Positions 974 through 57,673 of a DNA stretch of 64,000 bases are shown piece by piece; the stretch's first letter is position 1, and every line of letters starts with the position of its first letter. A program made the position numbers and the translations under genes. The DNA lies in contig OZ025877.1 in assembly GCA_964019415.1 (NCBI GenBank), positions 3,613,039 through 3,677,038 on the forward strand. Direction: 5' to 3'. The notes under the pieces are model-generated. The model was not told where the DNA came from. It made no database searches and was given only the letters and a program-made list of their open reading frames with translations. This DNA is from Ianthella basta. Lineage: Eukaryota; Porifera; Demospongiae; Verongiida; Ianthellidae.

Positions 974-3900
974 ATGGAGTTCATCGCATGCCAGGTTCCT
1001 TGTGTAGCTGTTCTACTGAGTTTGTTGCTGTTTAATAACCAAGAGCAGATTAATGCGCAAGGCTTTAGGGGTAAGAGAGAGTTCACATAAGTGCATTTTG
1101 ACGCTTCGGGGTCGTAGTAGCTAAACTTTTCCTTTTCGCTTTCTCACTAGATACAGCTTCATCCGTTACAGTCATCACCGGATTGAGAGGAATCGATTCC
1201 CAAGTTTATCTGCATCAGTCCAGGGCGAACGTGCAGGTTATCACCCAAATAGACTTCGCCGAGTGGCAGATTTACGAGTTTCCAGTGGATTACAGTGTCG
1301 ATCCCAAGCTGCGCTGCAGACCAGAGTATCTTGGCCGGTTCCTAAATCACAGCGGCAGAGACTGGGGCTATATTTACAATGTAACTACCACTTCGTTGAT
1401 CTTGCGATCTTTGGTTCTCATTAACAGCAGCGATGAGCAACCGCTAGCTTGCGGCTCAATCAGTCCGTACTCTCTTCCGTCGTATGCCGCCTCTGCCGAG
1501 TTCATGTCTGGAGTGTTTGGGAAGATATACATCTTACAATGGTCAGAAGGTGAGTATCGCATGGCCAAAGCTTCAATCATGTAATGTATTGTTTATAATA
1601 CAACCTTGTATAAAGTTCGAAGAAACATGTGATTGTGAAGCTTAAGAGTGTATGACTAAGTACGTATTAAATTTAATTAAGTTTCAGAACAGGAGCGAGG
1701 ATGAGTAGCTACTCAGTATCACTAAGCATAAGTAGGGACGGTATTACCTACATTACTGTTCACTTCTCAATTGTGCTTAATTCGTCGACATTAAGATATG
1801 CATCCCCGATGTTGGTTTTGAATACAACGTACTGCCTCTTCCTCATGGGTAACTACTTCTTATTATACTGTTTTTAGGCTTATACAGAAGTAGTGCTGGT
1901 ATTACTTATGTGTTCTACCATACCTACATTGATGGCAGTAAGATATACGTAGTGTCTGATAAGAATAAGACAAAATGTGGATTGAAGACACTGGAGGTCT
2001 CCTTCTGTGGGAACACATTTTGGCGCTACATGCAGAAAGTAAGCTTAGACTTGCTTGGCATACAACCAGCCGAAGTGTTTCCTCATGGGTAGCCTCTTTG
2101 CCAATTGCCACACATGCATGCATGTGCATGCTGTCTGATGTGAGAATTTAAAGTCTGTAACAGGAAGCATGCTTAAATCCACAACTAGTTCTTGTACTAT
2201 AATTATATTTTGTCCGTTTAGCGTACTCTCAAATGTTAATCCCATTTATATACCTCTATTCATAGTCTGCAATGTTGTATACTGTATCTAAAACAAGAAT
2301 ATAAGCATATATTTCTTCAACATTCTTGGTCATTGACAATGAGACAATGCTAGCTACATGCATTAATGGCTAAGCATCACAATTTGCTTGCCATGGCATG
2401 TTGTCACCTAAGCTTAAGGTAGTGTGTATAAACGTTCTCTGAATTCATTGACTGGTATAATAATTACGTGTGCATAAATACCATGGGCTTGCCACTTAGA
2501 GCTATAAATATATATTATATTTATATATAATAATATATTTAATAATCTTGCACTCAGGGGAGACCTACCTGCTAGGAGACCTCTTAACAGAGAGCAATCT
2601 TGGCGGTAGTGAGAAGACAATGCTGAATGTTAGCATTATTGTTCACGACAAAGTTATGGTCAGTTTACATGGTATATGTATGCATGTTATGTTATGTATG
2701 TCAATGTGGTGGATGCTTTGTGCTTCTCAGTATAACATAAACCCCTGCTGCCTGTGCTTACTGTGGATGCTTGTTTAAATGTTCTTATTTGCTTGTACAT
2801 AGTATATGTTCAATATAATTAATTATTACAGCTTATGTGCATGACAATACTAAGTTTGATGTTGTGGTGCAGCAGTCTCCGACAATGATAGCGCACACAA
2901 TTAATATTCAAATAGCGAGATACATTATAAGGTAAGCAGATCTCAAATGCACAAGGCACGAAACTCTTGCAAACTAATGAAGACAACTCCAAACACAAGG
3001 TAACACCACAGCTGTGTTTGTGCACCAGTCAGGTGAATACAACCACATTCATAAAAATGACTTATGCATAAACTACACTAAGCAGAATTATCATGATTGA
3101 AAGCATTGTACTTACGGTGATGAGACACAATTATACTGTTATTCTATGCTGCAGGGTCCGTATGACACCATGCTTCATAGATGCGATGGTCTGGAGGGAG
3201 GAATAACTCTAAGGTCTCCCACTACAGATGCCTACTACATGCCAAGTTCTCCCTTTCTGCAAAAGCTTCCTAGAACTACCCTGCTGTCCTCCAACATTAT
3301 TGGTTATGCTGTATCAGTTCAAACCTCTACAGGGGTGGTGATTGGCTGTGCTAGGTTTGAAAATCAATTCCCTGTTGATGCAACCTTCAGAGGTAAACAT
3401 GTATTCAGTCAATTAATCCAGTATCTCCCAGCGATTCTGCCTGATGTGTCAAATTTGGACATCCTCCAGTACAATATCCTTGAAGGCATTGCTGGCACCT
3501 GTTCTAGCAGTGCCAAGTTATTTGATCCCTGGTACCCACCTGGCCTGCAAATTGGCACTGCAATCACAAATGATCAGTTTCCAGTAGGGGATCTCCCTGG
3601 TCATAAGGTAACGCTTTTAAACTTGATTTTTGAAATACCACTAATTGGCAATGCGACCATTCTGGGACATGTGGTGAGCACAGCATCTCTGGTAGGTATG
3701 TTATGATCCTCACTTTATCTGATGCTACCATTTTTAGGAACTACGTAGCTCATAGGTCTTAGTGATAATGGTAGCCTGCCATAATACTACATCTGTTTGC
3801 CATGCAATTGGTTCCAATCTACATTAAATTTACAAGTTTTCTGATTCATGGTGTGTCATTGACTATGTGCAGAACTTCTCATTATGCCTTGTTTTTGTCA

Positions 3901-6900
3901 CTGTTGGATTATAAGCATGCATGAAAGAATATAATTTTATTCATTACAAAATATTCTTGGTTTTCAATCTAGTAATTAAACCTCTATACAAATACGGTAG
4001 TACACTGTAGATGCATAAATTTTGTTTCTGCTGTGGTATGGCTTGCATATTAGGTGTTACATGCATTCTCACACATATTATACATACAGGTGAATGACTC
4101 TGAGTGTAACTCAATAGAACTCTCTGTGACTGGGAGTGGCCACACTGTGAAGGGCTATGCTGTGTTTGATGGACCCACACTCACTGGAAGAGTCACATTT
4201 GTGGGTTCTTACAACATTACAAGTAGGATTTTACTAATTTTATTCAGTCCAGCACTGACAAATGAAGAATATTTGTCATTCCCTGGGCAAATTTACCTGT
4301 ACAAGCACCATAACCATTAACACTGTTGTCACTGATCCGTCCCAACTCTATACTTGTATGGACAAAAATCTCTGTCACCATGTGTTTCCTCGTGTCATCC
4401 AACTTGCTCACCGAGTGTTCTCATATTTTTAGAATGGCGCACACCTGCCCGCCATAATGTATGATTGTACTTTGTTTACAAATGTACATAAGCCATAGCA
4501 GCTTTATATTAATGCTGTATATCCATGTTTGTAGACCCAAGTGGTGCACCAGCCTGACTGGGCTCTGGGACCCACTGTGATCACTGTGGACCTGGCATAT
4601 GTGAACATTACCCAGGTAGGCTGATTGCTGCAATTCAATTACTCAATTAGACACAAGTATTCTCAGTGTGGGGTTCATTCACGCATGTACTCACACAATA
4701 AGTTTGCCGTTACCATCTCTATGAGTTCATTTGCTCATGTATGTACACGCATATTACACATTACATGTTAATTTGAAGGCATTTTGGAAAAAGAGCCATT
4801 CCCATTGCTATATATCCACTGTTGGCAAAACATGTTAGGTGCAGCTATTATTCTGTGTGGTATGCTTTGGTCACTTGTTCACATATCATATGCATATCAA
4901 TGTAGCTGTATAGCCATTTGTATACATGCTCTGGGTTAGATCGTTTTCACTGAGCCTGCATGCATGTCCCCCAGCAGTGGAGTATGATGATTTTCTGCCA
5001 TTACGAAGGAAGTAGACTTCCATATATGATGTGTGCTACGTTACATATACATTGAAATACATTTGTGGTCCTCTCCCTTGGCCTATTTTATTATAATATT
5101 TCGCCAGTCTTGGCATGAGTTGAGTGATCTCATATAGATAGGGCGAGGTTCACCATCCCAGTACTGTGCTCATAGAGACAAGAGAGATTTTATTGTGTCC
5201 TGCTAGAATGTACCTTCTTGATTTCCTTTACCTCAAACGTTGTATATAGAAGACATTCAGACTCACCAGCAGAGCAAACTCTTGCCTAACACATTAATTC
5301 AAAGCAGCATTCAATGATCACTAATCACAGGCTTCCTCCAGTGGCACCGCATTGTACAATGAATTGAATAGTACTAGTACTGTTAATCAAGAATTGATTG
5401 TCCACAAAGGCATCCACTTCATTTCACCATGCCTATGCCTATTGCCTATTTTCATGACAAATATTGATTGCTTCTCCAAGCTAGCCATATGCATTATTCC
5501 CATGTGTTAGGTTGTGTTCACTTTAATGTACATATTTTGCCACTCCTTGCACATACACTGTAGTCCACCAATGGCCATGAATGGTACATTCATGAAGGAA
5601 ACACAGAGAGCAATGGAACCTGCACTAGCCAGATTAATGGAGAGCCTTACAACCCATATGGAGTGAACACTACTGCAGAATCTGGCTACTTTGATGACTG
5701 TACTTCACGAAGGCAGCAGAGATGTGCCATGGGAGACCTCAGTGGGAAGCTGGAAGTGCTTGGGCTGGAACCGGTAACAACCACTGATCGAAAGACCTAT
5801 TCATTCTATGATGAAAACTTGCATCTAGTTGGACCTTTCACCAGTGAGTTGTCCATACATGCAGCCATCTCTGCATGGTCTCTTCTCCAACCATAGTACT
5901 TTATGAACTGTATCTGCACATGCACACATTTTGTGTATGTGGCTCGTGAATATAAGAGCTGCTGTATTCTTCTCTGAGTGATTCACCCCTACTATACACA
6001 GTCTTTAGCCGCTCCATTGTGGTGTATGGCACTGGTGCCCAAAGTGGTCAACTCCTTGGTTGTGCCAACATTGAGCCATCACTTGTAGCAGAGGAGGAGA
6101 TCAGCTTCCCAAGGAATGGGACCAACCCAGAAGACATTGACAGGTGCTTCCCTAAGAATGTATGAAATATTATTTATGCAACATACTACAACTCTTTTGC
6201 AAATCACATTGAATACCTTTTCTGTACACTATAGCATACACATTAATTATTGGTCATATGGTTATAATTATTATAATAATGGTTACACAGATTTTCCTCA
6301 CTATCTTTATGCAGATTTGCAATGGGTCACTTCTTATCCACACTTGCTGGAGTCCCACTTGGAGATGTGTTAGTGAGTGAAGTCCGAGCAGTGAACATTA
6401 GTGGACATGACTGTCTGACTGCTTCACTGTGGATTACAGGAATAGATGGTATGTATGTGTGAGAGGAGGAAGGAGAGAGTTGGATGGATTGCATGGACAA
6501 TGCATGTCAAAGTCAATAATATCAATAATATTAAGAGCAGTAGGATTACATTAAAGACAACTATATTGGGTGCTGTGACAATTATGCATGCTTGCAGTAT
6601 TTTTGCATTTGCATCAATTTGAAAATTGAAATGCTGTCACTTCCTTCTTTCTGTGCAGCTGATAATGCATCTCTGAATGCCCAAAATGTGAGTGCATTGG
6701 ACAGACAGAACCTCAGCCAGTACAGTGCAGGACCATGTGAGTGCTCATGGCATAAACATGTATGATACTGCAACATAAACAAGCCTAGAGACCATGAGAC
6801 ATTCCTTCACACTGGTATGCCACAGGAGACAGAGGTTTGTGTATATAGCACCTCTGCAATTCGCTGAGAGAGCTATATGTTATGCATGGGTTCATTGCTG

Positions 6901-9900
6901 CATAAGGGTACTGGTAGTGGAGAGTTATTGAGCGTAATTGCAACAAATGGATTTCACAGTGAAAACTGATTGATTGCAAAACCCAGTCACTGCAATTATG
7001 CTCAGTAACTCTTCACTACAAGTTTCTCCTTTCTCACTCTATCGGCCACCCGGACACCTTACTGTGTCTTGCATGTGATTTTATACTATTCCTGATGGTA
7101 TGGAAGCCATTTATGGCTATACTTATATAACGACATAGTGAAGGTTGAATTAATACATAGCTGGATAAATTACACAGAGACAGAAACAAAGTTTATTGCT
7201 CTGACAATCTTATTTTTGGCAGACAGTACTGTATCAACCAATTGCAGTACAGCCTGTACATAGCCCTGGCTACCAATGCCTTACGTATATACAAAGGTTA
7301 GAAAGCATAATTATGAGTTTCCTTTCACTGGCCCTGTATAATTGTCCTTCATCAGTTTGTAGGCATTTGTTGTAACAGTGCTAGCTGTTGTTCAGAGTGA
7401 AAGTCCTTATGCATGGGTGCCATGAATAATATTATAGTAAAATTAATACAAGGTATAGTGAAATCCACGACTATTATGTGTAAACAGTGTGTCGTATATC
7501 TTTTTACACATGTGATTCTGTTTCTTATGCCAAATGCCTTTATTAGGTGTACCTCCTCCCACTGAAGGAACGCCTCAGGCTTCGGTCAACACAGACATCA
7601 GTGAGCATTCACTGACAGTCACAGTTTCCTAATATTGCCATAATCGTATTGTCAAATGGTCCTATTACTTCAGTCATATAATTATACAATGCATATTTAC
7701 TTCAAGGGGAGTATCAAGTAATAAATTGCGGCACTTAGCCTCTGCAGCCATGCTGTGATGCTCAGAATAGTTGTATACATACTACAACACCGTAAGTAAG
7801 TACACCACAAGGGACATTCTATATATGTTGCAATTGCTACTAAATTTACTGTAGATCTCCTAGCATCCTTCCAATTAATATATACCTCCAAAGTAGTCTG
7901 CACTGAGGATGGCAATTTCCACAGACTGTCATGCACGCAGATTGAGCTACACCGGATTGTACATACACTGTGCTTCTACTGATGTTTCATCTGTATTCAT
8001 GCTCCAAACTGGCGGATCAGAATAATTTATTATTCACAATAATTACTGGGGAAACTGATTGAGGCTTAGATAGTTTCCTGCAATATAATTAATGGGTTTA
8101 TTATGCTTTCTGCCCTTGATTTGCTGTGCAGTCATCATTTCTGTGTTGGTGACAGTCTTCATTGTTTCTGCAATTGTCATTGGCATACTACTCATCAGGG
8201 CATCCAAAAGAAAGAAGAAAGTGGAACTCATGTTGTGGGTCTCTAACACATTCATACATTGCACACCTCTCTTATCCAAGCCTACAGTGACTATGGTAAA
8301 CTCATTGGCCACTTGAGTGTCTCCTGTTTCATATGCACCCATATAGTGTGTATAAAGTTGAAGGACAACAAGAAAACTGCGAGTTTGAGGTGTGCACCAG
8401 CTCTATACATTGTGAATGCTAGCATGAGAAACTATGCACATCAGTACAGTGGAACCTGTCTACGACAGCCACCTGTGGGCCAGCTGTAACTGACCTTTAT
8501 AGAGAGGTGGCTGCTCTACAAAGGTATTTTCTAGTGCTTTTTGTGCCATTTGCGGACAGGGAAGCTGGCTGTTTTAGAGTGGTGGCTGCCTAACTCAGTC
8601 ATCATCATAGACAGGTTCCACTGTGCATACACATGTATGCACATGTACATACACATGTATTCACATGTACATAAAATTTACATGCCAATTATTGCAGTAC
8701 GTATCTTATAATTTCACACCCACGCTCATACATACTAAAGTATGAACAATTCTCTGTCTTTACAGTATTCCAAAGCACTGGCCAAACTCCTGCCCTCCAA
8801 GGGTGACGAGTGGGAACTTTTTAGCTCTCAATTTAAAGTGGGAACCAAACTGGGTGAAGGGAACTATGGTCAGGTCTACAAAGGCACACTATCCATGGAT
8901 GTTGCCACTGCTCCAGCCAAGAAGTACGTAGCGATGCAGATGCAGGAAGGGAAGCCCCCCTACACAGTGGCCATCAAACTTTTGAAAGGTGGAGTTTTGG
9001 TAGTTTTGGTCAATATTTAGCTACACAATACAATGTCATGCTTATCAGATGTTGATGCTGTCTATATAATATATGTAGGGATGGCAGTGGTTGTTTGTAT
9101 GCTGTAATACAAATGAAAAGTCGCTCCAACTCTGAATAGGACCAGAAATGGGCAAACAAAGCTTCCCCATTAAGAAGCGGGGACTGAACAGTGCATATAG
9201 CTAACCTTGCTTCCTAGCGAAGGTGCATTGTCATGTAGAAAATGTCATGGACTTTCCCATGCTTCGTCTTCTTCCTCTTCTTCTTCTTCTCTGACAGCAG
9301 TAGTGCACGAACCAAGTGGAGCAGGAGAATTCTTCTTGCGTGATATTGCACCAATTATTCCTGGCTATATTCCTTTGTGGTTGGAAGGCGGCATATTTTA
9401 GTGAGACTGCCACCATGGTGTCCAGCTAAGTGGGACGGACACATTTCTAAATTATGTAACCCCTGGATGAAACTAGTGTGACTGGTGCCATTGTGAGCAG
9501 CTGCACACAGTGTCTGGAGGCTATTTCTCCCATTGTTCTGTGCCACAGTGGAATATTTGGCCTTGCTATATGACTTAGCGTGCACGTGACATTTGGATTT
9601 GTGGAATGAAATAATTGCAATATCAAAATGACAATAATAATTCTCAAATGCAAATTACAGCTAATTGAATCAGCTGGCTAGCTATACAAGGAAGTTGTAG
9701 CTATAATTAATATCATGCTTCTTAGCTCAAACTCCATAAAAAGTGCAGTAAGTAGAAATAATAAAAATTCTCTACAAAAATAGTAAGGATGGAATGGCAT
9801 AAAAAGAACAGAAACAAGTAAAGGCTGCTACACAATTGAGCATTAACCATCATCCCTACAATCAAGGATGTAGGACTGTACGGTGCGACATTATTGCATG

Positions 9901-12652
9901 TAGGGACCATGGTTAATGCTCCACTGTGTAACAGCCTTTACTTATTTCTGTACTTTTTGTATTCTCATTATAGCTCGGTTGGTATTTCAACATACAGTAC
10001 TGTATATACTACATATTTATAATAAAATTATAATACATTCTACATGCCCAAAAGCTGTTAAGCATCTTCTGCCCACTCTGGCTATATTCACACAAACACT
10101 GCTGATGACTGCTGCAGGAGGTGCAGAGAAGCGAGAGGTAGAGAACTTCCTGGAGGAGATTGCCATGATGAAGAAGGTGTCCACTGGGGAGTGCAGCCAT
10201 GTGGTCCAGATGGTGGGCTGTGTCTCCACTGCACTGCCACTTGCACTGGCCCTGGAGTTTGTTCCCTTTGGAGACCTCCTCTCCTACCTCAAGTACTGGA
10301 GGCAAAAGGTATAAGCTTAAATTCTGATGTAACGTGAGATGCAAATGCATAAGTAAAGCATTGTAGCACTAAGTAGCATTGCCAAGATCTGTGATATTAA
10401 CTGGACGTGGTGATTGAGCAACTCAATGCTAACTTCCTTTGAAAATGGAAAATTATAGAGCCTCTATCCTACATACTTGGCCACTGTACACAAAATTTTA
10501 GTGATAGCTTTTGAGCTATATATCTCAAGTTGTACATGGGAGGCAAGTTGTACATGGGAGGCATCAAATATTAGAGCTATGTCGGCCTTGTAGGATAAAC
10601 TGAGAATGAGAATGATGGTATTGCTACGGTGACCCGGGATAGCTATGTCCCTTCTGCAACATTAATAGGGTTGCATGATTCTGATTGAAGATATGAATCC
10701 AACGCATGAATGTATGTTAGCTAGTGTATTGCTGTCCTCCTGAATTGTTTATATAAATGTATGTATTCCGTATTATTTGTGCAGTATGATGTTGAGAGGA
10801 AGGGCACTCTCGCCGGACCAAGCATTGTATTATCATCAGCCTATGACAGACTGGAACCTAAGAGAGTGACAGTGGATGGAGCGTACGTTCATGCTACCGA
10901 GGACCTGGAGGTCAATGTGGCTTACGTCAAGGATCAGGAAGGGAAAGAAGTTGTTGAGCAAATTGAGCTTCTGCGCTTGGCTACAACTGTAGATCAAGAG
11001 ACTGAGGACCAGCTCCAAGTAGGTAGCACTAGATGCCCAGGAGCTGTTCTCCCCTCCTACCATGGAAACCCAGGCTATGCATGCCATCAGTACTGACAAA
11101 ATATTCTAAAAAGTCAAACATTCTTCATTTCTAACCCAATTAATGACTTTAGCAGTGTCACTCTGCACACTATCTATAGGGTGAAGAAGATTTCTCCCAA
11201 TTGAGTGTGCCCCTCTTGTCTGGCTATGACCACCTGTACCCCAAAAAGAATGAACAAAGAGTACTGAATGTGGCTGCCAACAAGGACTTGGAAACGTTCT
11301 ACTCACCACTTGGAGAGCCTGACTTGAAGGACATCCCTTACTTTGCCTACCAGATAACACAGGGAATGGTATGCAAAACAAACTATCCATTTTCTTTATC
11401 ACAAATTAAACAGGCTTTGCAAATCAAAGCAAAATGTGAACTCAAGTGGTGACATTTCCAATCCCTTCAGGAATACCTCTCCTCCCTAGGTATCCTCCAC
11501 CGTGACCTGGCCTGCCGCAACATCCTGGTGGATGAGAGGAAGCTGCTCAAGATATCCGACTTTGGTCTCTCCAGAAACACACCTAGTTATGTGTCCTGTC
11601 GTAAGGACAAGTTGCCACTGAGATGGATGGCACCGGAGACAGTGGTTGACAACATCTGCACTGACAAATCTGATGTGTAAGAAATTTTCTTTTACCATGC
11701 TTACATGAATATTCTAAAAGATCTGATTAGCATGAAGCCAGGCTCCAGGCTTCACTCGTTGCATGAATCCAATTTGCACATTTTTGCAAGTAATTCCCTG
11801 TGTTCATATAATGTATAATTATAGCATTAATTATTGCAAGTTGGTAATTAAACAATTAAATGATTGTTCTTCTTGCATATCTTATTGTAGGTGGGCCTTT
11901 GGTGTATGTCTGTGGGAAATGTATACATTTGGTAAGCACTTGCATATTATATTATTATATGCATACTGTAGAATGTCAAAGTTTAAGTAGTTGCTTACAT
12001 GTAACAATTGGATAATTACTATGAGTAAACTTTGTACATGTTTAAAGCGTATGTAAACCGAGTTTGTTTATTTACAAATGACTGCTCATACTCACACATA
12101 CACGCGTTCTAACGGTATCATTAACTACCCAACCCATGTACTTCTCAGGAGAGCTACCGTACAGAGACATTCCACTGGCCACTATTGTGGCAAAGATAGT
12201 CAGTGGCTACAGACTGCCCAAGCCAGAGCATGTCCCTGACCAAGTGTGAGTCATCAATAGACATGAAACAAATTGTACAAAGGAATTGCTGCCATGTTAT
12301 TGCCACTGTGCGTGCAGCTGTAAACTTTAATTTGAAGCTTAGGTATCCAGTGCACACAATGCATAGAACAATGCATTAACCCTGATGTTATAATTAAGCC
12401 CCTCTGCCCTTTGATTGCGATATCAACAGATACCAGCTGATGTTGACCTGCTGGCGGAATGAGCCAGCGGCTCGATTAAATTTCACACAACTGAAGTACA
12501 AATTCAAGGCAATTATTGATGCTAGCCATCCACGGAATGATCATGTGCAGGACTTGATTACACAGGACAGTTTGGGGGTCTCAGAGAGACAAGAGGATCC
12601 CAGTTCTTCATCTGATCATCCTTTGGTTGTTGCCATGACTCCATCTGACTAA
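974..12652 (+). CDS. RTK-1: receptor tyrosine kinase with SOD-like ectodomain
   Basis: Twenty exons join in phase to 1174 aa: 974-1070, 1151-1549, 2558-2658, 3155-3691, 4090-4200, 4535-4615, 5564-5843, 6002-6143, 6315-6448, 6659-6736, 7547-7600, 8132-8238, 8766-8988, 10118-10308, 10785-11018, 11180-11368, 11471-11676, 11891-11931, 12149-12245, 12430-12652. Residues 1-32 are a signal peptide. Residues about 34-653 are SOD-like modules with many N-glycosylation sequons. A transmembrane helix spans about 672-695, followed by a basic stop-transfer run (SKRKKK). The kinase shows a glycine loop GEGNYG (737-742), VAIK Lys778, a probable alpha-C Glu795, HRDLACRN (996-1003), DFG (1016-1018), Tyr1026 in the activation loop and LPLRWMAPE, so it should be active and tyrosine-specific. 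About 140 residues of insert separate the hinge from helix alpha-E. The C-terminal tail is short. Ligand unknown. Splice sites are read by eye; the donors GTGGGT (4201), GTCAGT (2659) and GTCTCT (8239) are weak but fixed by phase and by the paralog. Confidence 0.85.
1718..2094 (+). other. Two possible extra SOD-module exons of RTK-1, probably decaying
   Basis: Two open stretches lie between exons 2 and 3: about 1718-1848 (after an AG, with an [16 protein letters not shown] reading) and 1878 to about 2090 (with [16 protein letters not shown]). Both carry a similar GITY segment and both end at a near-identical CCTCATGGGTA, so they look like duplicates of each other. They join to each other in phase 1, but the second has no obvious phase-1 donor to reach the exon at 2558, and their ends sit in different frames. 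RTK-2 lacks both, though a remnant of the second one's end survives near 15126-15152. Either alternatively spliced or dying exons; left out of the model. Confidence 0.35.
8447..8623. mobile_element. Small TIR element, CAGTGGAACC family
   Basis: A 177-bp element in the intron between the transmembrane and first kinase exons of RTK-1. Its ends are inverted repeats: CAGTGGAACCTGTCTA on the left, TAGACAGGTTCCACTG on the right. Internally, sub-repeats of AGGTGGCTG occur in both halves. A related copy lies at 62253-62443 with the same ends and internal motifs. No coding capacity, so a MITE-like non-autonomous element; superfamily not determined. Confidence 0.75.
9801..9961. mobile_element. Hairpin (fold-back) element in RTK-1 intron
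   Basis: An imperfect palindrome with arms of about 60 bp (about 9801-9860 and 9897-9961) around a loop of roughly 40 bp. The arms share segments such as AGTAAAGGCTG and GAGCATTAACCAT in inverted orientation. It lies in the intron between exons 13 and 14, and I see no equivalent in the matching RTK-2 intron (21653-21836), so it probably inserted after the gene duplication. A MITE remnant is the likeliest reading. Confidence 0.7.
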
Positions 12653-14332: not shown

Positions 14333-17300
14333 ATGGGGTTAATCAGATGTCAGGTTCCTTGTGTAGCTGTTCTACTGAGTTTATTTCTGTTTAATAACCC
14401 GGAGGAGATTAAGGCACAAGGCATCTCTGTTTTTGGTAAGAGAGAGTTTGCAGAAGTGCATTTCGACTCGTCGGAGTAGTAGTCCAAACTCTTGCTTTCC
14501 GTTTCTCAATAGATACAGCTTCATCCGTTACAGCCTCCATCGACATGAGAGGATTCAAATCCCAAGTTAGTCTGGGTCAGTCTGGTGCGAATGTGCAGGT
14601 TTACACCGGAATAGACACCATCGAGTGGCGGATTTACGAGCTACCAGTGGATTATAGCGTCGATCCCAAGCTGCGCTGCAGACCAGAGTATCTTGGCCGG
14701 TTCCTAAATCACAGCGGCAGAGACTGGGACTACATCTACAATGTGACTACTACTTCCTTGATCTTGCGATCTTTGGTTCTCTTCGTCGTCGGTAGCGATG
14801 AGCAGCCATCAGCTTGCGGGTCAATCACCCCGACTGCTATTCCATATATCGCCTCTGCCGAGTTCATGTCTGGAGTGTTCGGGAAGATATACATCGTGCA
14901 ATGGTCAGGAGGTGAGTATCGCATGGCCAAACTTCAATATAGTACGTAAAACTTTGTCTTATACGTATGTCACTATATATGCATGTGTTCAAAAAGTGTT
15001 TGCCAATGATTGTTTGGAATGTACAATACCGGTATTATACAGAAGACTATGCTTGTCATGTAAATACTTTCTTGCGTACTTTCACTGGTAGGAAGTAAGA
15101 TAATATATAGACTTACTTGGTATGTAGGCACTTTTTCCTCATGAGTAGCCTTCTTTGCCAGTTACCATAAATTATGCTGTCTGAAAGTGTGTCACTGGCA
15201 AGCTGCAGAGAATCTACTTCAATTTCTAGAACTCTCCAGGGCATACTCTCAAACTCCACCATACCTCTGTCCGTACATAGCTTGCAGTGCTATCTACTAA
15301 CTGTATATGTATAAGAACGAAAATTATTGATCATTATTATTGCTTTAAAATTCTTGGTCAAAAAGACAATACTAGCTGCATTTATTCTGGTTAAACCACT
15401 ACACAACTAGCTTGGCATGTTGTCACCCAAGGGTTGAGACAGTGTGTCTGAATTTCATCTGAATAAATATTCATACTGATTGGTATATGTCAAGGACGTA
15501 TTTGCAAATAACAGGTTTTTATTCATTAATCTTGCTCTCAGGAAGAAACTATCTAGTAGGAGATATATTAACAGAGAGGGAACTTGACAGTAGCGAGAAC
15601 GCAATGCTGAATGTCAGCATTCTTGTTCATGACAAAGTTATGGTCAGTCTGGTACATGTTATTTTGTCAATGTTGACAATGTGCAGTTTCTGTGATTGTG
15701 AATACAGCATAAACCCTTGCTAATGTTTGCTGTGGATGCTTATTTAAATTATTAAAAATTCCCATTCTTAGTATGCTTAATATGAATCATTATTACAGCC
15801 TATGCTTGGTAAGTATGATTGTACACATTGTTACTGTAAAAATATAGTGATATAATATTATTGTGTTCTGCTATGTTGCAGGGTCCATACGACACTATGC
15901 TTCATGGATGTGCTGATCTGGAAGGAGGAACAGCTCTCATGGCTCTAGATACAAATGCCAACTTCCTGCTAAATTCTCCATATTTGCAACAACTCTCTAG
16001 AACAGCTCTTCTGTCCTCCAGCGTTAACAGGCAGGCTGTGTCAGTTCAAACCTCTACAGGGGTGGTGATTGGCTGTGCCAGGTTTGAGCGTCTGTTCCCT
16101 GTGGATGCAACCTTCAGAGGTAAACATGTATTCAGTCAATTCGTCAAGTATTTCCCAGCAAGACTGCTAGATGTATCAGATTTGGACATCCTCCAGTACA
16201 GTATCCTTGAAGGTATCGCTGGAAAATGTACAAGTAGACCAAAGATATTTGATCCCTGGAACCCACCTGGCCAGAGAGTGGGTGACAGAAACACAAATGA
16301 TCTGTTTCCAGTGGGGGATCTTCCCAATCACGAGCATTCTCTTTTGAACTTCATATTTGAAGTGCCACTCATTGGCAACGCGACTATTCTGGGACATGTG
16401 TTGAGCAGCAAATCTTCGGTACGCGCATTATGGTGCTCAGTTAATATGATCATGCCACCACCTTTTGGAGCTTGGTCTTAAATTTAAAGAGTAAAAAAGT
16501 GGTAGCCTACTATGACACATCTGTTTTGCCATGCATTCACTGCCGATCCAAATTTCATTTTTTATATTAATGGTGTGTCAAGGAATATGTACAGGAAGTA
16601 GCTTTTGTTGATTGACACTAGTACTGTTGACTTATAAGCACGCATGAAAGTTAACTTCATTACAAAATGCTCTTGGTTCTCTACTCAGTATAAAGAAATT
16701 TCCATGCAGAACTGATGTATAAATTAAGTTGCAGTATTGTGGTTTGGCTTGCATATATGGGTGCTATATACATGCATTCACACCTGTCCACAGGTGAATG
16801 ACTCTGAATGCAACTCAATAGAACTCTCTGTGACTGGGAGTGGCTGAATATGAGGTCAATAATGTTTTACAAGCAATAGAACTCCACATCCTATCCTGAC
16901 TTTCCCTCTAAGAATTCTTCTTATTGCTTTGATATCACTTTCTCTAAATCTACCAGTTTACTCAAGTGCGTCATGCACATGCACGCACATAAACATCAAT
17001 CCTGAGATCAGTTAGAAGGAGAGACGTGTGTTTTAAACTTTCTATTGCTATAGATATCTGTCGTAGGCAGTTAAAACTTGGTGTGCACAATTGAAGGCAC
17101 TTGTCACTTTCTGTGCTGTACAATAATGTCATTTGTCTACTTGTATAACACAACTGTGTCAGCTAGGGCTTTCAGTGCAGATAACCATATTGCAGGTGAC
17201 GTGGGGTTGATTGCTTTCACTGAGCCTGCATGCATACTAGTATGAACGTTTGCCTACATTACGACTTGTAAATTAATGTGGCACCTTGAGAGAGGTTAAT

Positions 17301-20300
17301 TGGTGGTCCTTTCCTTTGGTCCGTTACGAATAATATATGGCACTGCCCTCATGTGTTGAATGGCCCCATTGGTAAGGTTCCCCTACCCCAGTTCTATGCA
17401 CACAGAGGCAAAAGCAATTCAAATGTGTCCTGCTGGAGCATACTTACTTTCGTGATCTTTCTGTCAATGAGCTTTAGTATATAGCTGGGTAATACTTTCT
17501 TTTAGACATTCATGCTCGCCATGCAGAGCCATTGCTTGCCTGACAGTCTAAGTCAATGCAGCAATTCTCGATCAAACATCACAAGCTTTGTCTGATGACA
17601 GGCAAATGCTACTTATTGTACATCCTGTACAATGACTTACTGTTAATCTAAAATTGCATGATCACCCATGGCCATGAAAAGTATCACACCACTTTCAACT
17701 CATCATGCTTGCCTAATTTCATGACAAGTTGAAGACTTCTCCAAGATAGCTGTGCTACATTGCGTTAGTGTTCATATCAATGTTAATTTTTCCTCCCCAT
17801 GCACACTATAGCCTACCAATGGCCATGAATGGTACATTCATGAAGGACATGTAGGAAGCAATGGTACCAGCACTAACCAACCTTACAACCCGTATGGAGT
17901 GAACACTACTGCAGAGTCTGGCTACTTTGATGACTGCACTTCACGGAACCAACAGAGATGTGCCATGGGAGACCTCAGTGGGAAGCTGGAGACACTTGGA
18001 CTGGAACCAGTCACAACCACTGATCGAAAGACCTATTCATTCTATGATGAAAACGTGAATCTAGTTGGACCTTTCACCAGTGAGTGATCTCGTCCCTAAC
18101 TACAATATTACATATAATATAACTTTACACTCTTCATTAACATGGTTCACTAGAGCTCCTGTACCCTAATCTGTACGATTCACCCCTACTACATGCAGTT
18201 TTTGGTCGCTCCATTGTGGTGTATGGCACTGGTGCCCAAAGCGGTCAACTCCTGGGTTGTGCCAACATTGAGCCATCACTTGTAGCAGAGGAGGAGATAG
18301 AGATCAGCTTCCCAAGGAATGGGACCAACCCAGACGACTTTGACAGGTGCTTCACTCTAAAATGCATGCAATATATGTAACATACTACAACAGTGCTGCA
18401 AATCATACTGTATATCTATTCTGTACATTATTGTATACACATTGAAGCTATAATGGTTCTATAATGGCCATTATACAGATTTTTCCTCACTAACTATGAT
18501 AGGTTTGCAATGGGTCACTTCTTATCCACACTTGCTGGAGTCCCACTTGGAGATGTGCTGGTAAATGATGTTCGAGCAGTGAACATTAGTGGACATGACT
18601 GTCTGACTGCTTCACTGTGGATCACAGGAGTGGATGGTATGTGTTGAGAGGAGGAGGTATGAGGGCATGGGAAGTAAATTATAATGCATGTGAAAGTCAA
18701 TATTGAAATATTGATAACAATCTTAAGTACATTAAAGGCAACTGCAGTGTGTGATGGGCAATTATGTATGCCAGTAACTTTTCTCGCACCGGCATGCGCA
18801 TAAATAATAATAAAGTTACAATAAAGAGATGAGAAACCACATTTGTGTAAATTAAAGAAATGCTGCCACTTCCTTCTTTCTGTGTAGCTGATAATGCATC
18901 TCTGAATGCCCAAAATGTGAGTGCATTGGACAGACAGAACCTCAGCCAGTACAGTGCAGGACCATGTGAGTGGCCATGGTAGTGGGATAAATGTGTATTC
19001 AAGCTGGAATTGGTGAAATAGACAAGCTAACTCAATCTTTTCTGTGCTTTGAATGTAATTTTTAGAATTCCTGTGGTTGTTTATGGCAGCAATTCCTTGG
19101 TAAAATAGTGAAGAATTAAAACATAGCTGGATGATCTACATAGAGACAGACAATCTGTATATACTACCTATTGTAATACTTTGCTGCCAGTACTGTATGA
19201 CTGTGCAGTCACATCATAGCAGTGATCACACTATAGGTTTTAGGCAGACATTAAAATGCCTACCATTGCTTTACTCAACTGATTAGAAAGCATTAGACTT
19301 TCCATTCTCTGGTCCTGTACCTTCAGTGTGTAGGCATTCACTGTAACAGTCCTGTTGTTCAGAACGAAAGTTCGTATGCATGCACTGGTGCCAGGGAATG
19401 TTATTATAGTGAAATGAAACGAGGCATTGTGAAATCTAGGACTGCATGTGCATATTAACAAAGAGTTTTGCTTGTCTGACTCTGTTTCTTATGCCACATA
19501 CCCTTGTTAGGTGTGCCTTCTGCCACTGAAGGAATGTCTCAGGCTTCGGTCAGCCCAGACATCAGTGAGTATTACATACAATAGTCACATAACTTTCCAA
19601 ATATTTTCTTAAGTGTACTATTAGCCTCGTTCTCAGGCCGTCCGAGTTAATTAGCGCAGAGGCAGAAAGGATGGCCTGGGCACCACTGTTCCCTCCCCCC
19701 CCCCCTCCCCCAGTTTTGGGGGGTGCCAGAAAACATCACATATGTTTCCGTAATCTATGTGTAGAAGAGTATAGATTAGCCATGAAATGGACAGCTGGGA
19801 AACGCTCAGAACAGTCGGAACCGGTCCAGTTTGGGTAGAAAATTACCAACGTTAGTCAGTTTGCTGAGATGCTTCAATATGCGGTGCCAGTGATTTTCAA
19901 ACACTGTGCACACAGGACTGACGGGAGCAAAGCAGTCTCGCTAACATCGTCTGGATCTAACACGACTCGCAGTTAGGTTGTGCGCCGACTATTGCATACA
20001 TGTGAGCCTGTCTGACTCTCCGTCTCGTTCCAAAATAGCATTTCTCTGCTATTGTAAGCTGAGCCATTCCTGCTAGCTGCTACATATGCGAGTGCAAATT
20101 AAGGGATATCCACAGCGAGGAAGCTTCCAGAAGCCGTGCTCTTCTCGACAGCCTTGCTGTACGTCTTCTCTAAGGCAAGGCAGGCAAATAACTAGAGCTG
20201 AAGCTCTTACGAGCTAGTTATTTGCTGGAATCTCTTTGCGCATGCGCAAACAGTGGTTCCCAGGCCATCCTTTCTGCCCCCGCGCTAATTAACTTGGACG

Positions 20301-23300
20301 GCCTGGGAACGAGGCTAGTGTACTATAGAAAGGTCCTATTAATTTCTTCATACAACTCATATTTACAAGCTATATAGTGAGAAATTGTGCCAATTATGTA
20401 TAGCCTTTAGCAACCACTGCTGCTCAAAATGTCTGTATACGTGATACAGCACTTGACATCAGAAGTACCAGTACCAGTATAACCATCAGAATATCTATAC
20501 ACATTCCACCAAACAACTTATGCAATGTAACAAAGATTTCTTAATTCCACAATGATTATTGGTAGTACACATACAACAGAGAGGAGACATTCTACGTTGC
20601 AACTCAACTGTGCTAAGCAACCTTCCAAGCTAGCTTGTCCAAGGTAGTCTCCAGAGAGGATGGTAATATTAATGTTAACAGACTGTCAATAATGACATAC
20701 AGGCTGAGTATATATAGGCGTTCGGTATTCTTTGCTCCTGCAAATCTTATTGATGTTCTATATAGCTGCATTTAATAATATGCTATCAAACTGGCGGATC
20801 AATCACACACAATTTCTGAGGGGAAATATGGGTCGAGGATAAAATAGATTACCACAGTTTATGTTATGTTCAAGTATGGTAAAATAGTTTTGTCTATATT
20901 TTAATACTTGATTTAATATGCTTACTAATATTTCTGCCCTTGAATTTGCTGTGCAGTCATCATCTCTGTGTTGGTGACAGTCTTCATTGTTTCTGCAATT
21001 GTCATTGGACTACTACTCATCATGGCGTCCAAAAGAAAGAAGAAAGTGGAACTCATGTTGTGGGTCTCTAACACATCCATACATTGCACTCCTCTCTAAT
21101 CCAAGCCTACAGTGACTATCCGTGTCATACAGGATGAACTCACGCACAATGACCACTTGTGTCTCTCCTGTTTCATATTCACCCATGTAGTGTGTACAAA
21201 GTTGAAGGGCAACAAGAAAGCTGCGAGTTTGAGGTGTGCACACTTCACATTGTGGAGTTACGACAAGAAATGCTATGCACATCAGTACATATATGTGCAC
21301 ATGTATATACAAGTACATGATCATGAATAGCACTGTAATCCATCACAGCATCCTATAATTTCAGTGCCACTCTCATACAATCATACAAGCATGTCACATA
21401 CTTCAGTATACAATTTTCCATCTTTACAGTATTCCAAAGCACTGGCCAAACTCCTGCCCTCTAAGGGTGACGAGTGGGAACTTTTCAGGTCACAGTTTAA
21501 AGTAGGAACCAAACTGGGTGAAGGGAACTATGGCCAGGTCTACAAAGGCACACTCTCCATGGATGTTGCCACGGCACCAGCCAAGAAGTACATGGCAATG
21601 CAGATACTAGAAGGGAAGTCCCCCTACACAGTGGCCATCAAACTGCTGAAAGGTGGGGGGTTGGTCAAATTTTGGCCATACAATATTTCTCTGATGGTGG
21701 TATTTCAACATATAAAAATGTTAATTATACAGAATGAATACTATACATATATTATACGAACACATACACAGAGTTGTTAAACATCTTCTGCTCACGCTGG
21801 CTATATTCACACAAACACTGCTGATGACTGCTGCAGGAGGTGCAGAGAAGCGAGAGGTAGAGAACTTCCTGGAGGAGATTGCCATGATGAAGAAGGTGTC
21901 CTCTGGGGAGTGCTGCCATGTGGTCCAGATGGTGGGCTGTGTCTCCATTGCACTGCCACTTGCACTGGCTCTAGAGTTTGTTCCCTTTGGAGACCTCCTC
22001 TCCTACCTCAAGTACTGGAAACAGAAGGTAACTTCCGATCTGATGTGAGATGCAATTGACTGCAGCGTATACGTATATATACACAGTACTGTATGGCAAA
22101 CAGCTTATTACATACTTTGAAGTAATACAACTACCTTAGAACAATTTTTGAGTCGGTGATAACGTCTGGGCAGTGATAAATAATTGGCTCACTGATAATA
22201 CCCTTAGAGACCCATACATACTCCTGGACCACAACATTTGTATATATAATTATATAATTTATAGTGTGCTAGCTTTTGAACTAAATCTCAAGTTGTAGAT
22301 ATATAGTAAGGACATAACTGTGAATCAGGTGGACACTTACCACATCAGTGACTCATAGTAATTTTGTCCCTTAATTTTTAATTTCTACAATTTTTTGGGT
22401 TTGCTACTCTGAAGACAAGGCATATGTCAGCACCGTGCAGTATGATCTTTTCTTTCCTTCACTGTTTCCATGTGTTGGCATGTAGGACGCTGTTGACAGG
22501 AGGGGAAGCTTGACCACACCAATTATAGTCATAACACCACCCTATGACAGAATAGAACCAAAGAAAGTTATTGCAGTGGGAGGATTGTACTTGAATGCTA
22601 CCGAAGACCTCAAGTGCAAAGTAGCTTCTGCCATGGGCCAGGAAGGAAAGGAAATTGTGGGGCAAGATGAATTTCTGCACTTGGCTACAGCAGTAGATCA
22701 AGAGACTGAGGACCAGCTCCAAGTGGGTTCCACTAGAGATGCTCAGGAGCTGTTCTCCCCTCCTACCATTGAAATCCAGAGTATGCGTGTCACAAGTACC
22801 AACAAAAAGGTATAACACTTCATATGAACCGTATGGCCTTTTTGACTGCATGGACTATGCATATACACCATAGTGTCATATCCATATCAATATCATGTCT
22901 GCATTAATCGCATTTTGCATGTCTTAGTAGTCTAAGGTTTGTCCTATACTGTTCTAATGTTAGTTATTATCCTGTTCCAACATTCTTTCCATTGGCAATA
23001 CATGATCTAAGTTCACTAATGTTGGAATAATATCATTTTTGTACTATTTAGGTTGGAGAGAGTTTCTCCCAATCGAGTGTGCCGCTCTTGTCTGGCTATG
23101 ACCACCTGTACCCCAAGAAAAACAAACAGGAAGAGCTGCATTTGGCTGAAGACAAGGACCTGGAAACGTTCTACTCACCACTTGGAGAGCCTGACTTGAA
23201 GGACCTTCCCTCCTTTGCCTACCAGATTACACAGGGAATGGTATGCAAAACAAACAGTAAAATTCACTTTTTACCATTGCAAACAGCCATTTTTACTTAC

Positions 23301-24620
23301 TTTACTTTTAAGGAAATTGTGTAGCCAAGCCATTGATCAATTGATTGATTGATCAAGTGGTCCATCATGCATAACCTTCCCAATCCCTTCAGGAGTACCT
23401 CTCCACCTTGGGTGTCCTCCACCGAGACCTGGCCTGCCGCAACATCCTGGTGGATGAGAGGAAGCTGCTCAAGATATCAGACTTTGGTCTCTCTCGAAAC
23501 ACACCCACTTATGTGTCCTCCCGCAAGGACAAGTTGCCACTGAGATGGATGGCGCCAGAGACAGTGACTGAGAATGTCTGCACAGACAAATCTGATGTGT
23601 AAGAAAATGCCTTTACTGTGCTTTACATGAACATTAAATAGATTAAGATCTGATTACCAGGCATCAGGCTTCACCCATTGCACAATACCATGTATACAAA
23701 GCACTTCACTGTGTTCATTAATGTAGCATTACACATTGGTGTTTTCATGATTAAATAATTGTTACTATTCGCATTTGGATGTGTTTAATTTCAATCTTGT
23801 TGCATCTCTGATTCATAGGTGGGCTTTTGGTGTGTGTCTGTGGGAAATGTATACTTTTGGTAAGTATTTGCATAATTATTATATCATAGTTAAAATATTT
23901 GATCTAAATACTATGAACACAATAAACTCCATACATCTTTAGTGTACCTGAATCAAGTTGCTTATAACATTATACAAAATTAATGAATAATTGTACAAGT
24001 GCATCCATTACATGTATTACTGCCACTGCTCGCACGCATGCACACACGTCCACACACAATGTTTCATTCACTGTGTCCATCCTATCTAAATATCTCAGGA
24101 GAACTGCCATACAGAGATATTCCACTGGCCACTATTGTGGCAAGGATAGTCAGTGGCTACAGACTGCCCAAACCAGAGCATGCCTCTGATCAAGTGTGAG
24201 TCCTCAATTGAATCACATTGCCAGCACACAATGGACCAGAAGCAAAATTGCACACAAGTAGTGCTGTCATTGCTGCTGTGTGTGCAGTTGTGAACTTTAA
24301 CTTTGACACTTCAGTACCCAGTGCACACAATATGTAACACACATTACACACGATGTTATAATAATGCCTCTCTGCCTTGTAATATCAACAGATACCAGCT
24401 GATGTTGACCTGCTGGCACAATAAACCAGGGGCACGCCTAGATTTTATGCAGTTGAAATACAAGTTTAAAGCAATCATTGATGCTAGCAACCCAAGGGCT
24501 AGCTACACTTCCCAGGACTCAATTACACAGGAAAGCCTGAAGAACTTAGATCTAGAGAGACAAGAGGATCTCAGCTGCTCTTCTGATGCATTGGCTGATC
24601 CTGTGATACCATCGATCTGA
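14333..24620 (+). CDS. RTK-2: tandem paralog of RTK-1
   Basis: Eighteen exons join in phase to 1142 aa: 14333-14435, 14513-14911, 15542-15642, 15882-16418, 17812-18079, 18199-18346, 18503-18636, 18888-18965, 19511-19564, 20957-21063, 21430-21652, 21837-22027, 22486-22809, 23052-23240, 23393-23598, 23819-23859, 24099-24195, 24392-24620. The order is as in RTK-1: signal peptide, SOD-like modules, transmembrane helix, kinase. The kinase keeps the glycine loop, VAIK lysine, [11 protein letters not shown], an activation-loop Tyr and LPLRWMAPE, so it should be active. Two differences stand out. The RTK-1 exon at 4090-4200 survives only as a truncated copy with an in-frame stop, and the RTK-1 exon at 4535-4615 is absent; skipping both keeps frame. 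The first kinase-insert exon is 30 codons longer. No frameshift or stop is seen in the joined reading frame, so it is probably functional. Confidence 0.82.
16794..16847 (+). pseudogene. Relic exon in RTK-2
   Basis: The sequence after the CAG at 16791-16793 matches the start of the RTK-1 exon at 4090-4200 ([17 protein letters not shown]) and then breaks at GGC TGA, losing the rest of that exon. No counterpart of the next RTK-1 exon (4535-4615) is seen before 17812. Both belong to the N-terminal strands of the third SOD-like module, so this module must be incomplete in RTK-2. Confidence 0.75.
19622..20317. mobile_element. Non-autonomous DNA transposon with long TIRs and 9-bp TSD
   Basis: A 696-bp element in the RTK-2 intron before the transmembrane exon. 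It begins TAGCCTCGTTC and ends GAACGAGGCTA; the inverted repeats extend about 69 bp with few mismatches (left 19622-19690, right about 20249-20317). The 9-bp GTGTACTAT flanks it directly at 19613-19621 and 20318-20326. No coding capacity, with a C-rich internal tract at about 19692-19710. Long TIRs and a 9-bp duplication are typical of Mutator-like elements, but the superfamily is inference. Absent from RTK-1, so it arrived after the gene duplication. Confidence 0.88.
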
Positions 24621-26204: not shown

Positions 26205-29200
26205 TCACTTCTTGCTCTTTTGCACAAACTCCCACAACTGCTTGTGCACCTGAGGTGATGGGTAAGTGACATAGAATTGAGATGTGGCTACACTATACAA
26301 GGTACTAGCACAGAAATGTTACTTGGTACAGGAGTTATAGGTGAATGAAACCACTCACGCTTGGGTCATCAATCTTAAAGGTGTTTTTCACGAAGTTGGC
26401 AAACTTTTCCGGCTTCTTGGGAAGATTTGGGCTCTGAACAGTACAAAAGACATGCACACATGTAGTACAGTTACGAAACAAAGAGAAGTACAGCAATGTA
26501 CATGTAACCCTATGAAAAAGCAATCACTAGCAGTGGAACCTGTTTAATCCAGACACATTGCCTGCTATAGACAGGTGCAGTGAAGTGTACAGCCACCATT
26601 TGAGCCAGGTGTTGGCGGTCTTACACAAATGCTGTCCAATACAATGACCGTTACAAAAAGAGTGCACTTATTGAAGGTAGTCGAGGAAGGAACACATGCA
26701 CACTATCTTACCTTGAGCAGCCTTGCCTTCACTTGGTCCACTGAGGTTGCGGCAGGCTGTGGAAAGATAGCAGTGGAGAATTAGTTACAAAGAATACTAC
26801 GGGACATAGTCTAAGAGTTCACACTATGTGTCTGCATGTATATGTGTGTGCACGCACGCTTGTGTGTGCTTGCATGTGTGCTTGCATGTGTGCAAGTGCG
26901 TGTGCATGTGCGTCTTCACAGTGTTGGCTCACCTTTGCTTTGGGTGTTGCCTTAACTGTAGCAGGCTGAAAAGAACAGAAAGTGTGTACCGCAAATAACA
27001 AGCTGGTCATGTCTCTCCCGAGCTCCAAATAGTTACAGTCAATTACACATAAACTATGCGACACCACCCAGTGCGTGCTGCACACTCACTGTCACTTCCT
27101 TTCCTTTCTTGCCCGACTGAGGTGTCTTCCCCTTCTAAACAAGTGAAGTGACAGACACGACAATGGAATATGCACATTAAACAAGGGATCTTACATTCCA
27201 AAATGCAATATTCCGAATAGAAATCAAACAGAGTTATAAGGCTACCACTATCTACAACAACACAGGTACATGTAACAATCTTCAACCCATTGTCATCACA
27301 ATTGGTGAAGAGATGACATAGTCACAAACAACAGAAATCTAGGACAGTAGTACCCTATTCTATTGCACACTGCCCAGCATGGTTCATTCAGAGACTGTGA
27401 ACTCACCTGTGGTTTGGCTGCCTGTGGTGTGTCCTTTGCCTTCTGCTGAGGTGCTGGCTGTTTGGCCGACTGTCAGGAAAACAGTATAGACAGAGGGTGG
27501 GAAGCATGTGTGTGCAGATCTGATGTGTGTCTATCTTATGTGTAAACGCATACACACACACAAGGAGTATACAAAGTAAAATACTGAGTAGCTAGATACC
27601 TTGTGCTGCTGTTACTGTGCCACTAGGCAGGCCTGACGCTATTCAAATGTGAAGTACATTGCAGTATGCACAGACAAAATATAGCTGGAAATACATGCAG
27701 ATATTATGTCAGAGCTGTATAGCCATGCAGTAGAAACATAACAAGGAAGGCACATCTGAGGGCATACTTAAGTGAGTGAGAATTCTTGGTTTTGCAAGTA
27801 TCAAGCACACCACACCAACAGACATGCTAACTTGTTTCTTCTTTGGTGCTGGAAGCTGTTCCATCTCTTCTTCCTCTGAGTCGTCTTCCTCTTCATCTTC
27901 ATCATCGTCCTCTTCATCGTCATCTTCGGATTCTTCCTCGTCGTCATCCTTCCGTGCTCCATTAAACATGCCCTTTGCTTTGAGGTACTTTATCACCTCG
28001 TCCCTGTCCAATTCCTCGCCACTGCTCTCGTCATCATCTTCTTCATCCTCCTCATCATCATCTGACCGTCAGTGAATTAGAGATGGAGGGAGGAGAGGAG
28101 TGAATGAGTGAGTGAGGGACAGAAGGAGGGAGGGGAAGGAGGGAGTGGATGGGAGGGAGGGAGTGGAGGAGAGGGAGGGAGTGTTTGTGAAAAGGGAGTG
28201 GTGGCATTGCAGCACGGACACTGCAAGCAGGCATCCACGTTAGCATGTACAAAGTGCAAGTGTAACAAAGTTCAAGGAAAAGTATCGCAGTATCGCACAA
28301 GAACACTGTCCATATACAAGATGCAATCGTGACCAAGTGGACTCAATTTCTATATAAGTAACACGTTGAACTACACACCACGTGACCACATTAAACAGTA
28401 TCACCCCTTCCCAACACACACATGCACACACACCTTCCTCCTCTTCATCTTCCTCCTTCTTCTTCATGACCTATAATGTTGGCAAGCACAAAAGTAAAGA
28501 CTCTTGACCATACCAAACGACACATGACAACATGGCACACACCACACAAGTACCACATGAACACACCTTCTAAATGGCACCACACAAGCACCCTATACAA
28601 GCACACCTCCCAAACAGCACCACACAAGCACACCTCCCAAATAGCACCACACAAGCACACCATACAAGCACACCTCCCAAATAGCACCACACAAGCACAC
28701 CTCCCAAATAGCACCACACAAGCCACATACAAACACACCTCCCAAATAGCACCACACAAGCACACCTCCCAAATAGCACCACACAAGCACCACATACAAG
28801 CACACCTCCCAAATAGCACCACACAAGCACCACATACAAGCACACCTTGGCATCTTTCTTGCCAGCGCTTGTAGCAGGTGATGGAGCAGGCCTTTTCTGC
28901 AGAAAATAGACAAATTTCACCAGCTCTAATAAAGCACCATGAATAGTGGTGTTACTGGTGTACAGAGAGTGTATCACTACCACAACAATGAACACAACAA
29001 CACAACACAAAGAATGATCATAGAGACAAAGGAGACACAACACCTAGAAACATTTGATTTTAGCCACAAGATAAACCAATGGTGTATATAAATGCTTGTG
29101 TGCACTGGGAGCAGACTCACTCGTGACACTTCCTGTGTTATCTTGGATGCGACTTCAGGGCTGGATGCCTCTGGAAGGAGAGAGCAAGGGGGGGAAGTGG

Positions 29201-29606
29201 GGGGCAAACAAGAATAAGTGGAGATGGTGGAGGAGGGAATGGGTGGGACAGAGAGGTGGTACACAGGAGGGGAAGTGGATGGTAGAGAAGAATGGATTGA
29301 GGGTTTGTAGAAGGGAGAGGCACATGGCTGGTTCAACAAGTACACCTAACTAGCATACCTTCCTTCTCTTCCTGGTCCTCCTCTTCTTCTTCTTCATCTG
29401 ATAACCCTATGTCATCCAGAACTGCAGTTAAGGAGACAGAGAATGAAGACATAATGCAGCTTGCCTATACCAATGCACTCTAACAGTGTTCCTTTGCTCA
29501 CCTTGCTCGTGGACGCCGCCAATAGCCACCGGACCACTACCTGTGAAGGCAATGAAGTCACACACACATAAGAGGTATGCATGGTGTACAGGGTATAGAT
29601 ATGCTC

Positions 29607-29668
<62 letters not shown>

Positions 29669-50141: not shown

Positions 50142-57673
<7,532 letters not shown>

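Follow-up and report, generated by a model that had tools for sequence, protein, structure and literature searches.

A gene in the 64,000-nucleotide stretch of Ianthella basta DNA analysed here (the window) raises the question whether a receptor tyrosine kinase (RTK) can carry an ectodomain built from modules of the superoxide dismutase (SOD) type, and what such modules would do on a receptor. The gene is located on the plus strand, from the ATG at position 974 to the stop codon at 12650-12652, and our model gives 1174 amino acids from 20 exons, which are separated by 19 introns with GT-AG splice sites and whose reading frame is free of stops throughout. An earlier note, made from the letters alone, had placed a 20-exon gene at 974..12652 and its ectodomain at residues 34-653; start, stop and exon count are the same in our model and the ectodomain span agrees with it. 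A spliced aligner with the window protein as query returned identical exons, which checks the coordinates and not the gene model, and the putative donors of exon 5 (4200, gtgggt) and exon 15 (11018, gtaggt) were picked on the basis of the reading frame and of their resemblance to SOD or to gene B, the second copy in the window. Hydropathy and gene model predict a single chain with a signal peptide, an extracellular part and a single transmembrane helix at about residues 671-693, where hydropathy shows its one strong peak and the maximum of the protein (3.06). Residues 1-665 contain 14 N-glycosylation motifs, and the 12 ectodomain cysteines past the signal peptide can be assigned, with the pairing deduced from position, to pairs, of which every SOD module has one, module 4 a second one and the membrane-proximal domain another. 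The architecture, which can be read directly from the predicted chain, is with high probability that of an RTK with an SOD-module ectodomain (Table 1).

Table 1 Features of the receptor gene in the window and of the copy next to it. Positions are those of the window; residues are those of the predicted window protein.
Feature	Position	Strand	Evidence
Exon 1: start codon and predicted signal peptide (hydrophobic residues 3-21)	974..1070	+	hydropathy 2.15, peak at residue 3
SOD-like module 1, residues 34-140	1153..1473 (exon 2)	+	
Module 2, residues 141-268, least certain module	1474..3361 (exon 2 end, exon 3 (2558-2658), exon 4 start)	+	
SOD-like module 3, residues 269-392	3362..4131 (exon 4 and exon 5 start)	+	weak to moderate profile match
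SOD-like module 4, residues 393-563	4132..6084 (exons 5-8)	+	PF00080 and CSRP-type repeat profile matches
Exons 5-8	4090-4200, 4535-4615, 5564-5843, 6002-6143	+	
Membrane-proximal domain, residues 564-654	6085..6736 (exons 8-10)	+	can be aligned with the copper-bearing relatives, which share its contig
Linker exon 11 (7547-7600) and exon 12 (8132-8238)	7547..8238	+	transmembrane helix, basic stop-transfer stretch
Tyrosine kinase with long insert between lobes	8766..12652 (exons 13-20)	+	PF07714, E 3.2e-74 (window protein)
Gene B, tandem second copy, same exon order	14333..24617	+	

The complete tyrosine kinase and the transmembrane helix, both of which had been claimed before, hold up in our analysis, since the kinase matches PF07714 (Table 1), the hydropathy peak is pronounced and the checked catalytic motifs are intact in the predicted protein (GEGNYGQV at residue 737, VAIK at 775, HRDLACRN at 996, DFG at 1016 and APE at 1040). 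The nearest solved kinases were a construct labelled EGFR (9p9u), followed by RET, FGFR and PDGFR, and with the latter three, i.e. the long-insert group of RTKs, the window kinase has its kinase type, motifs and long insert in common. Among the 120 kinase relatives listed as nearest, out of 2586 below the threshold, no match to the window ectodomain was obtained at E 10, and the PF00080 mark is absent from all of them. In a kinase tree of six family copies and 52 of the 57 relatives tried, all among the 120 listed, the sister (100/96) of the window-family kinase is that of P0017, an unnamed environmental RTK whose ectodomain, composed of CAP and IgGFc-binding parts, is unlike the SOD modules and whose position is unsure because of its long branch. 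Long open frames of a large family, 29-36% identical to residues ~225-640 of P0017, form arrays on contigs C6 (0.93-1.16 Mb) and C18 (5.34-5.40 Mb). Contigs C22, C15, C8, C4, C11 and C13 also carry very large tandem arrays in which exons of several tyrosine-kinase classes recur, at a minimum of 98 places in one exon search and of 150 in another.

The ectodomain requires closer inspection, module by module. SOD-like blocks are indeed present, yet all four peptide blocks quoted in the earlier note fall within module 4. A scan with the Sod_Cu profile PF00080, which that note had proposed, matched module 4 of the window copy when it was scanned in isolation (E 6.8e-4, 20.5 bits, below the cut-off of 28.9), but the profile was not reported for the full-length window protein or for the whole window ectodomain. 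Among the paralogs, module 4 was matched in eight of 10 cases at E <= 0.05, one of them above the cut-off, and two of 10 gave no match; three of six whole ectodomains had a PF00080 match, the window ectodomain not being one of them. Modules 1-3 gave no Pfam match, and their SOD likeness required profile or structure comparison. The fold comparison with SOD, likewise proposed before, succeeded for module 1, where all 50 entries listed were SOD or CCS, so that its predicted fold is that of an SOD barrel; the structure model of exon 4, which covers half of module 2 and module 3, reached a pLDDT of 32. In part-by-part profile comparison with repeats of animal Cu-only SOD repeat proteins (CSRP), in which rows covering less than 60% of a part were dropped and g3943 was left out of module 1, module 4 gave profile matches and module 3 a weak to moderate one (best whole-sequence E 1.3e-8, probability 80 at best), while neither module 2 nor the membrane-proximal domain, each taken alone, had a profile match to CSRP outside this genome. 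The assignment of module 2 rests on its place in the collinear profile alignment and on a single cysteine pair, C209/C264.

By sequence, the modules belong with the CSRP, a class that had been missed before and that includes CUSR in fish and SOD4 in amphibians; as here, these proteins consist of tandem SOD-like modules with one cysteine pair each. A homology search among 5.8 billion proteins (7992 candidates scored) gave a best E of 3.4e-31, with PF00080 repeats in all five matches, and a search with a paralog profile added one match, likewise with PF00080. The ectodomain is collinear with six multi-SOD proteins, which we take as CSRP, over 328-516 columns, module 2 by position only and with g3943 omitted from module 1 and from the whole ectodomain. 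The top score of module 1 was to the N-terminal repeat of CSRP-type proteins, and that of module 4 to the last repeat in three of five proteins and to an earlier repeat in two of five. CSRP are described as secreted or GPI-anchored proteins with 4-12 repeats (PMC13017621, a review of 2026), whereas the window protein has a transmembrane helix and a kinase, and its module 4 lacks the copper set. As further marks of CSRP the review names an E110/D113 signature and the lack of loop VII. The parts of this review available to us mention no receptor, transmembrane or sponge form, and kinases occur there only in connection with CCS and MEK1. According to the same parts, CCS domain II and oyster dominin are SOD-like without a copper site and use the barrel beyond dismutation, which resembles what we propose here, but they are not described there as receptors or as fused to kinases. 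The earlier note knew of no standard RTK family with SOD modules and suggested searching other genomes for the architecture: we did not find it outside this genome among the protein searches and the listed kinase relatives, the protein searches returning CSRP-type matches and no such receptor, and the paralog profile recovered the receptor nowhere else among the 7995 best word-sharing candidates (proteins up to ~1250 aa). Receptor ectodomains are widely shuffled according to an analysis of the holozoan tyrosine kinome (PMC8662651), in the accessible parts of which neither SOD nor superoxide occurs. A literature search for SOD-kinase receptors found no report among the matches listed, which were drawn from open-licence literature and in some cases represent a small share of all matches. 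We describe the window protein as an RTK with an ectodomain class that we found unreported in the searchable literature.

The predicted receptor is one of a large family in this genome, which the earlier note had overlooked. A search of the 209 Mb genome with the module 4 exon located at least 25 ectodomain places, a number that leaves out an SOD-repeat protein on C8. In most of the 12 further copies that we modelled, many exons, among them 5, 6, 9, 10, 13 and 17-19, are of equal or almost equal length, with models g3594 and g3605 covered in part only and the first kinase lobe of g3962 not recovered in its model. In gene B, we located neither exon 6 nor the second half of exon 5, and exon 5 runs into an in-frame stop, which means that its module 4 is either damaged or built differently. 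Across the 91 pairs among 14 copies, median amino-acid identity was 0.41, 0.40, 0.58 and 0.74 in modules 1-4, 0.82 in the membrane-proximal domain, the most conserved part of the ectodomain, 0.80 and 0.78 in the kinase lobes, and 0.27 in the kinase insert (78 pairs), some of these identities being depressed by models containing frame errors. Median dN/dS ranged from 0.20 to 0.41 in the four modules, the membrane-proximal domain and the kinase lobes and from 0.50 to 0.62 in the kinase insert, the transmembrane stretch and the tail; in modules 1-3 synonymous changes are near saturation and many pairs yield no ratio. The pair g3503/g3555 showed 0.96 in module 1 and 1.13 in module 2, on few changes. 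The divergence of modules 1-2 could be due to relaxation instead of ligand-driven change. Some of the modelled copies contain stops or frameshifts, and these, together with the missing part of module 4 in gene B and with copy 3555451, in which kinase exons 13, 14, 19 and 20 were found and exons 15-18 were not, would fit an array that is largely a graveyard, with the window copy or most copies decaying or unexpressed. However, we consider this improbable in view of the 1174 open codons and GT-AG splice sites of the window gene and of dN/dS ratios far below 1 in both halves (0.37 for the ectodomain and 0.23 for the kinase in the comparison with gene B).

The SOD modules could suggest that the receptor senses a redox or metal cue, which was one of two guesses of the earlier note, the other being a scaffold role of the barrel. 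We inspected the four copper-binding His of module 4, i.e. H46, H48, H63 and H120 in human SOD1 numbering. The set is complete in none of 13 receptor copies, the window gene included and gene B standing outside these counts. At H46, one of the 13 copies has His and 10 have Tyr; His is retained by 11 copies at H48 and by none at H63 (with one gap), and at H120 all 13 have Tyr, so that a receptor copy retains at most two of the four. Three relatives on C10 (1691010, 1702086 and 2039590), in contrast, have all four copper His in module 4, and the C22 copy described below keeps only H63, with both H46 and H120 being Tyr as in most copies of the main family. In the copies seen, copper loss accompanies kinase fusion, two combinations being too few for a rule. 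Sensing of copper or superoxide via the SOD modules could draw on the retained set of the C10 relatives, on H48 in 11 of 13 receptor copies and H46 plus H48 in one, and on the oyster CSRP reported in the accessible parts of PMC13017621 to be an active SOD; with H63 and H120 missing from module 4 in all 13 copies it is nevertheless quite improbable, and the guess of a copper or redox cue through the SOD site is not supported, for the same reason; the scaffold role is the better of the two guesses.

The copper-bearing relatives and the C22 copy also bear on the order of events. Sequence of the three C10 relatives was covered from module 4 onward, upstream repeats being assumed. From the end of module 3 on, exons of the same kind continue in 1702086 up to the end of the membrane-proximal domain, followed by a short exon and an end that, according to DNA reading and spliced alignment, encodes a GPI-like hydrophobic tail with the stop at positions 2219-2221 of L048. 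No kinase match was obtained in the 7 kb read for 1702086, the 4 kb read for 1691010 or the 7 kb read for 2039590; a LINE-type endonuclease-like long open frame (L047 6039-6998, by eye) lies ~5 kb downstream of the last. A midpoint-rooted tree of 23 rows, based on module 4 plus the membrane-proximal domain, groups the 14 receptor copies in a single clade (100/100). The C22 copy together with 2039590 joins this clade (100/99), whereas 1702086 (90/79) and 1691010 lie outside. In the C22 copy, a transmembrane-like exon (by eye) precedes a kinase of a different class, inside which the stretch read ends; the best match of this kinase among solved structures is again 9p9u, labelled EGFR, with Eph receptors and BTK next. 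At 22 other places on C22 and C11 one exon of this kinase is 83-97% identical, and an SOD search at these places found the C22 copy only. Its sister 2039590, for which no kinase was found, has all four His. These data are compatible with the possibility, which we put forward tentatively, that a single lineage twice converted an extracellular copper enzyme into a signalling receptor, once in the window family and once, on C22, where a similar ectodomain stands before an unrelated short-insert kinase; tandem arrays might subsequently have diversified in their outer modules, which would be expected of receptors whose partners vary, for example microbes or other individuals. A separate gene on the minus strand of C8 (5947993-5951751) has an 851-aa open frame in which several SOD repeats precede a Ser/Thr-rich stretch, and by eye at least two of its repeats carry copper-type His motifs.

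Taking architecture and mechanism together, we consider it probable that the window gene encodes an RTK whose ectodomain is a four-module, copper-free CSRP derivative with its barrels serving as a binding scaffold. A GPI-anchored extracellular protein of the SOD type would have gained a transmembrane helix and a kinase in place of its GPI exon, and copper would have been lost; as no enzymatic function had to be preserved, the barrels would serve as a scaffold. Modules 1-2, the outer ones that diverge fast, may bind an extracellular ligand, while the conserved module 4 and the membrane-proximal domain might position the receptor or relay binding; ligand binding would then cluster the kinases and lead to mutual phosphorylation and recruitment of downstream proteins. 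An ectodomain with mainly an adhesive or decoy role, combined with a kinase whose output is weak or secondary, would have parallels in those CSRP that lack copper sites and in the non-enzymatic extracellular role of dominin (both from the accessible parts of PMC13017621), but it carries little probability, given that the checked catalytic motifs are intact and that the kinase is among the most conserved parts. How receptors acquire new binding domains is usually reconstructed across distant species. Here, one genome appears to hold several stages, namely a copper-set relative with a GPI-like tail, kinase fusions lacking the copper set, a further fusion in which the kinase is of another class, and arrays whose copies have diversified. 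The copper-free scaffold reading would add SOD barrels to the folds of RTKs and make the step from enzyme to receptor directly testable.

That ectodomain and kinase form one gene is supported by their arrangement across the genome. Close kinase places number at least 23 at 83% identity or above, the next being at 67% (150 of 810 candidates scored). An ectodomain and a kinase counted as paired when they lay no more than 8 kb apart on one strand and in the right order. At 20 of the 25 ectodomain places the same kinase exon follows downstream after 3.4-6.3 kb in the same orientation; 19 of these places are among the 23 on C10, and the remaining one is the single place on C5. Seen from the kinase side, an SOD-type ectodomain lies upstream of 20 of the 23 close places. 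The five unpaired ectodomain places are copy 3555451, the C22 copy and the three copper-bearing relatives; near the kinases at C10 3548684, C10 2098393 and C7 2989639 the module 4 exon search gave no ectodomain, nor was one seen in the part of the flank read before C10 2098393. We rejected the reading as two adjacent genes, which might appeal to the long introns that separate the kinase from the membrane-proximal exon, to the three relatives with module 4 and no kinase match in 4-7 kb and to the three kinase places without an ectodomain found, as very unlikely indeed because of the same kinase, order and strand at 20 of 25 places, the transmembrane exon in between and a frame that stays open through 20 exons.

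Elsewhere in the window, short tandem repeats at 28448-30800 and 35133-35479 produce long repetitive open frames, which are not evidence of genes. Downstream of the receptors, the minus strand from 31000 to 64000 carries an apparent tandem array of genes of the lecithin:cholesterol acyltransferase type (for example 33792-34748, 40637-41545, 50145-51053 and 60547-61485), with PF02450 matches in two pieces (33792-34748, E 1.2e-29; 42136-42450, E 6.3e-6) and the others alike by eye.
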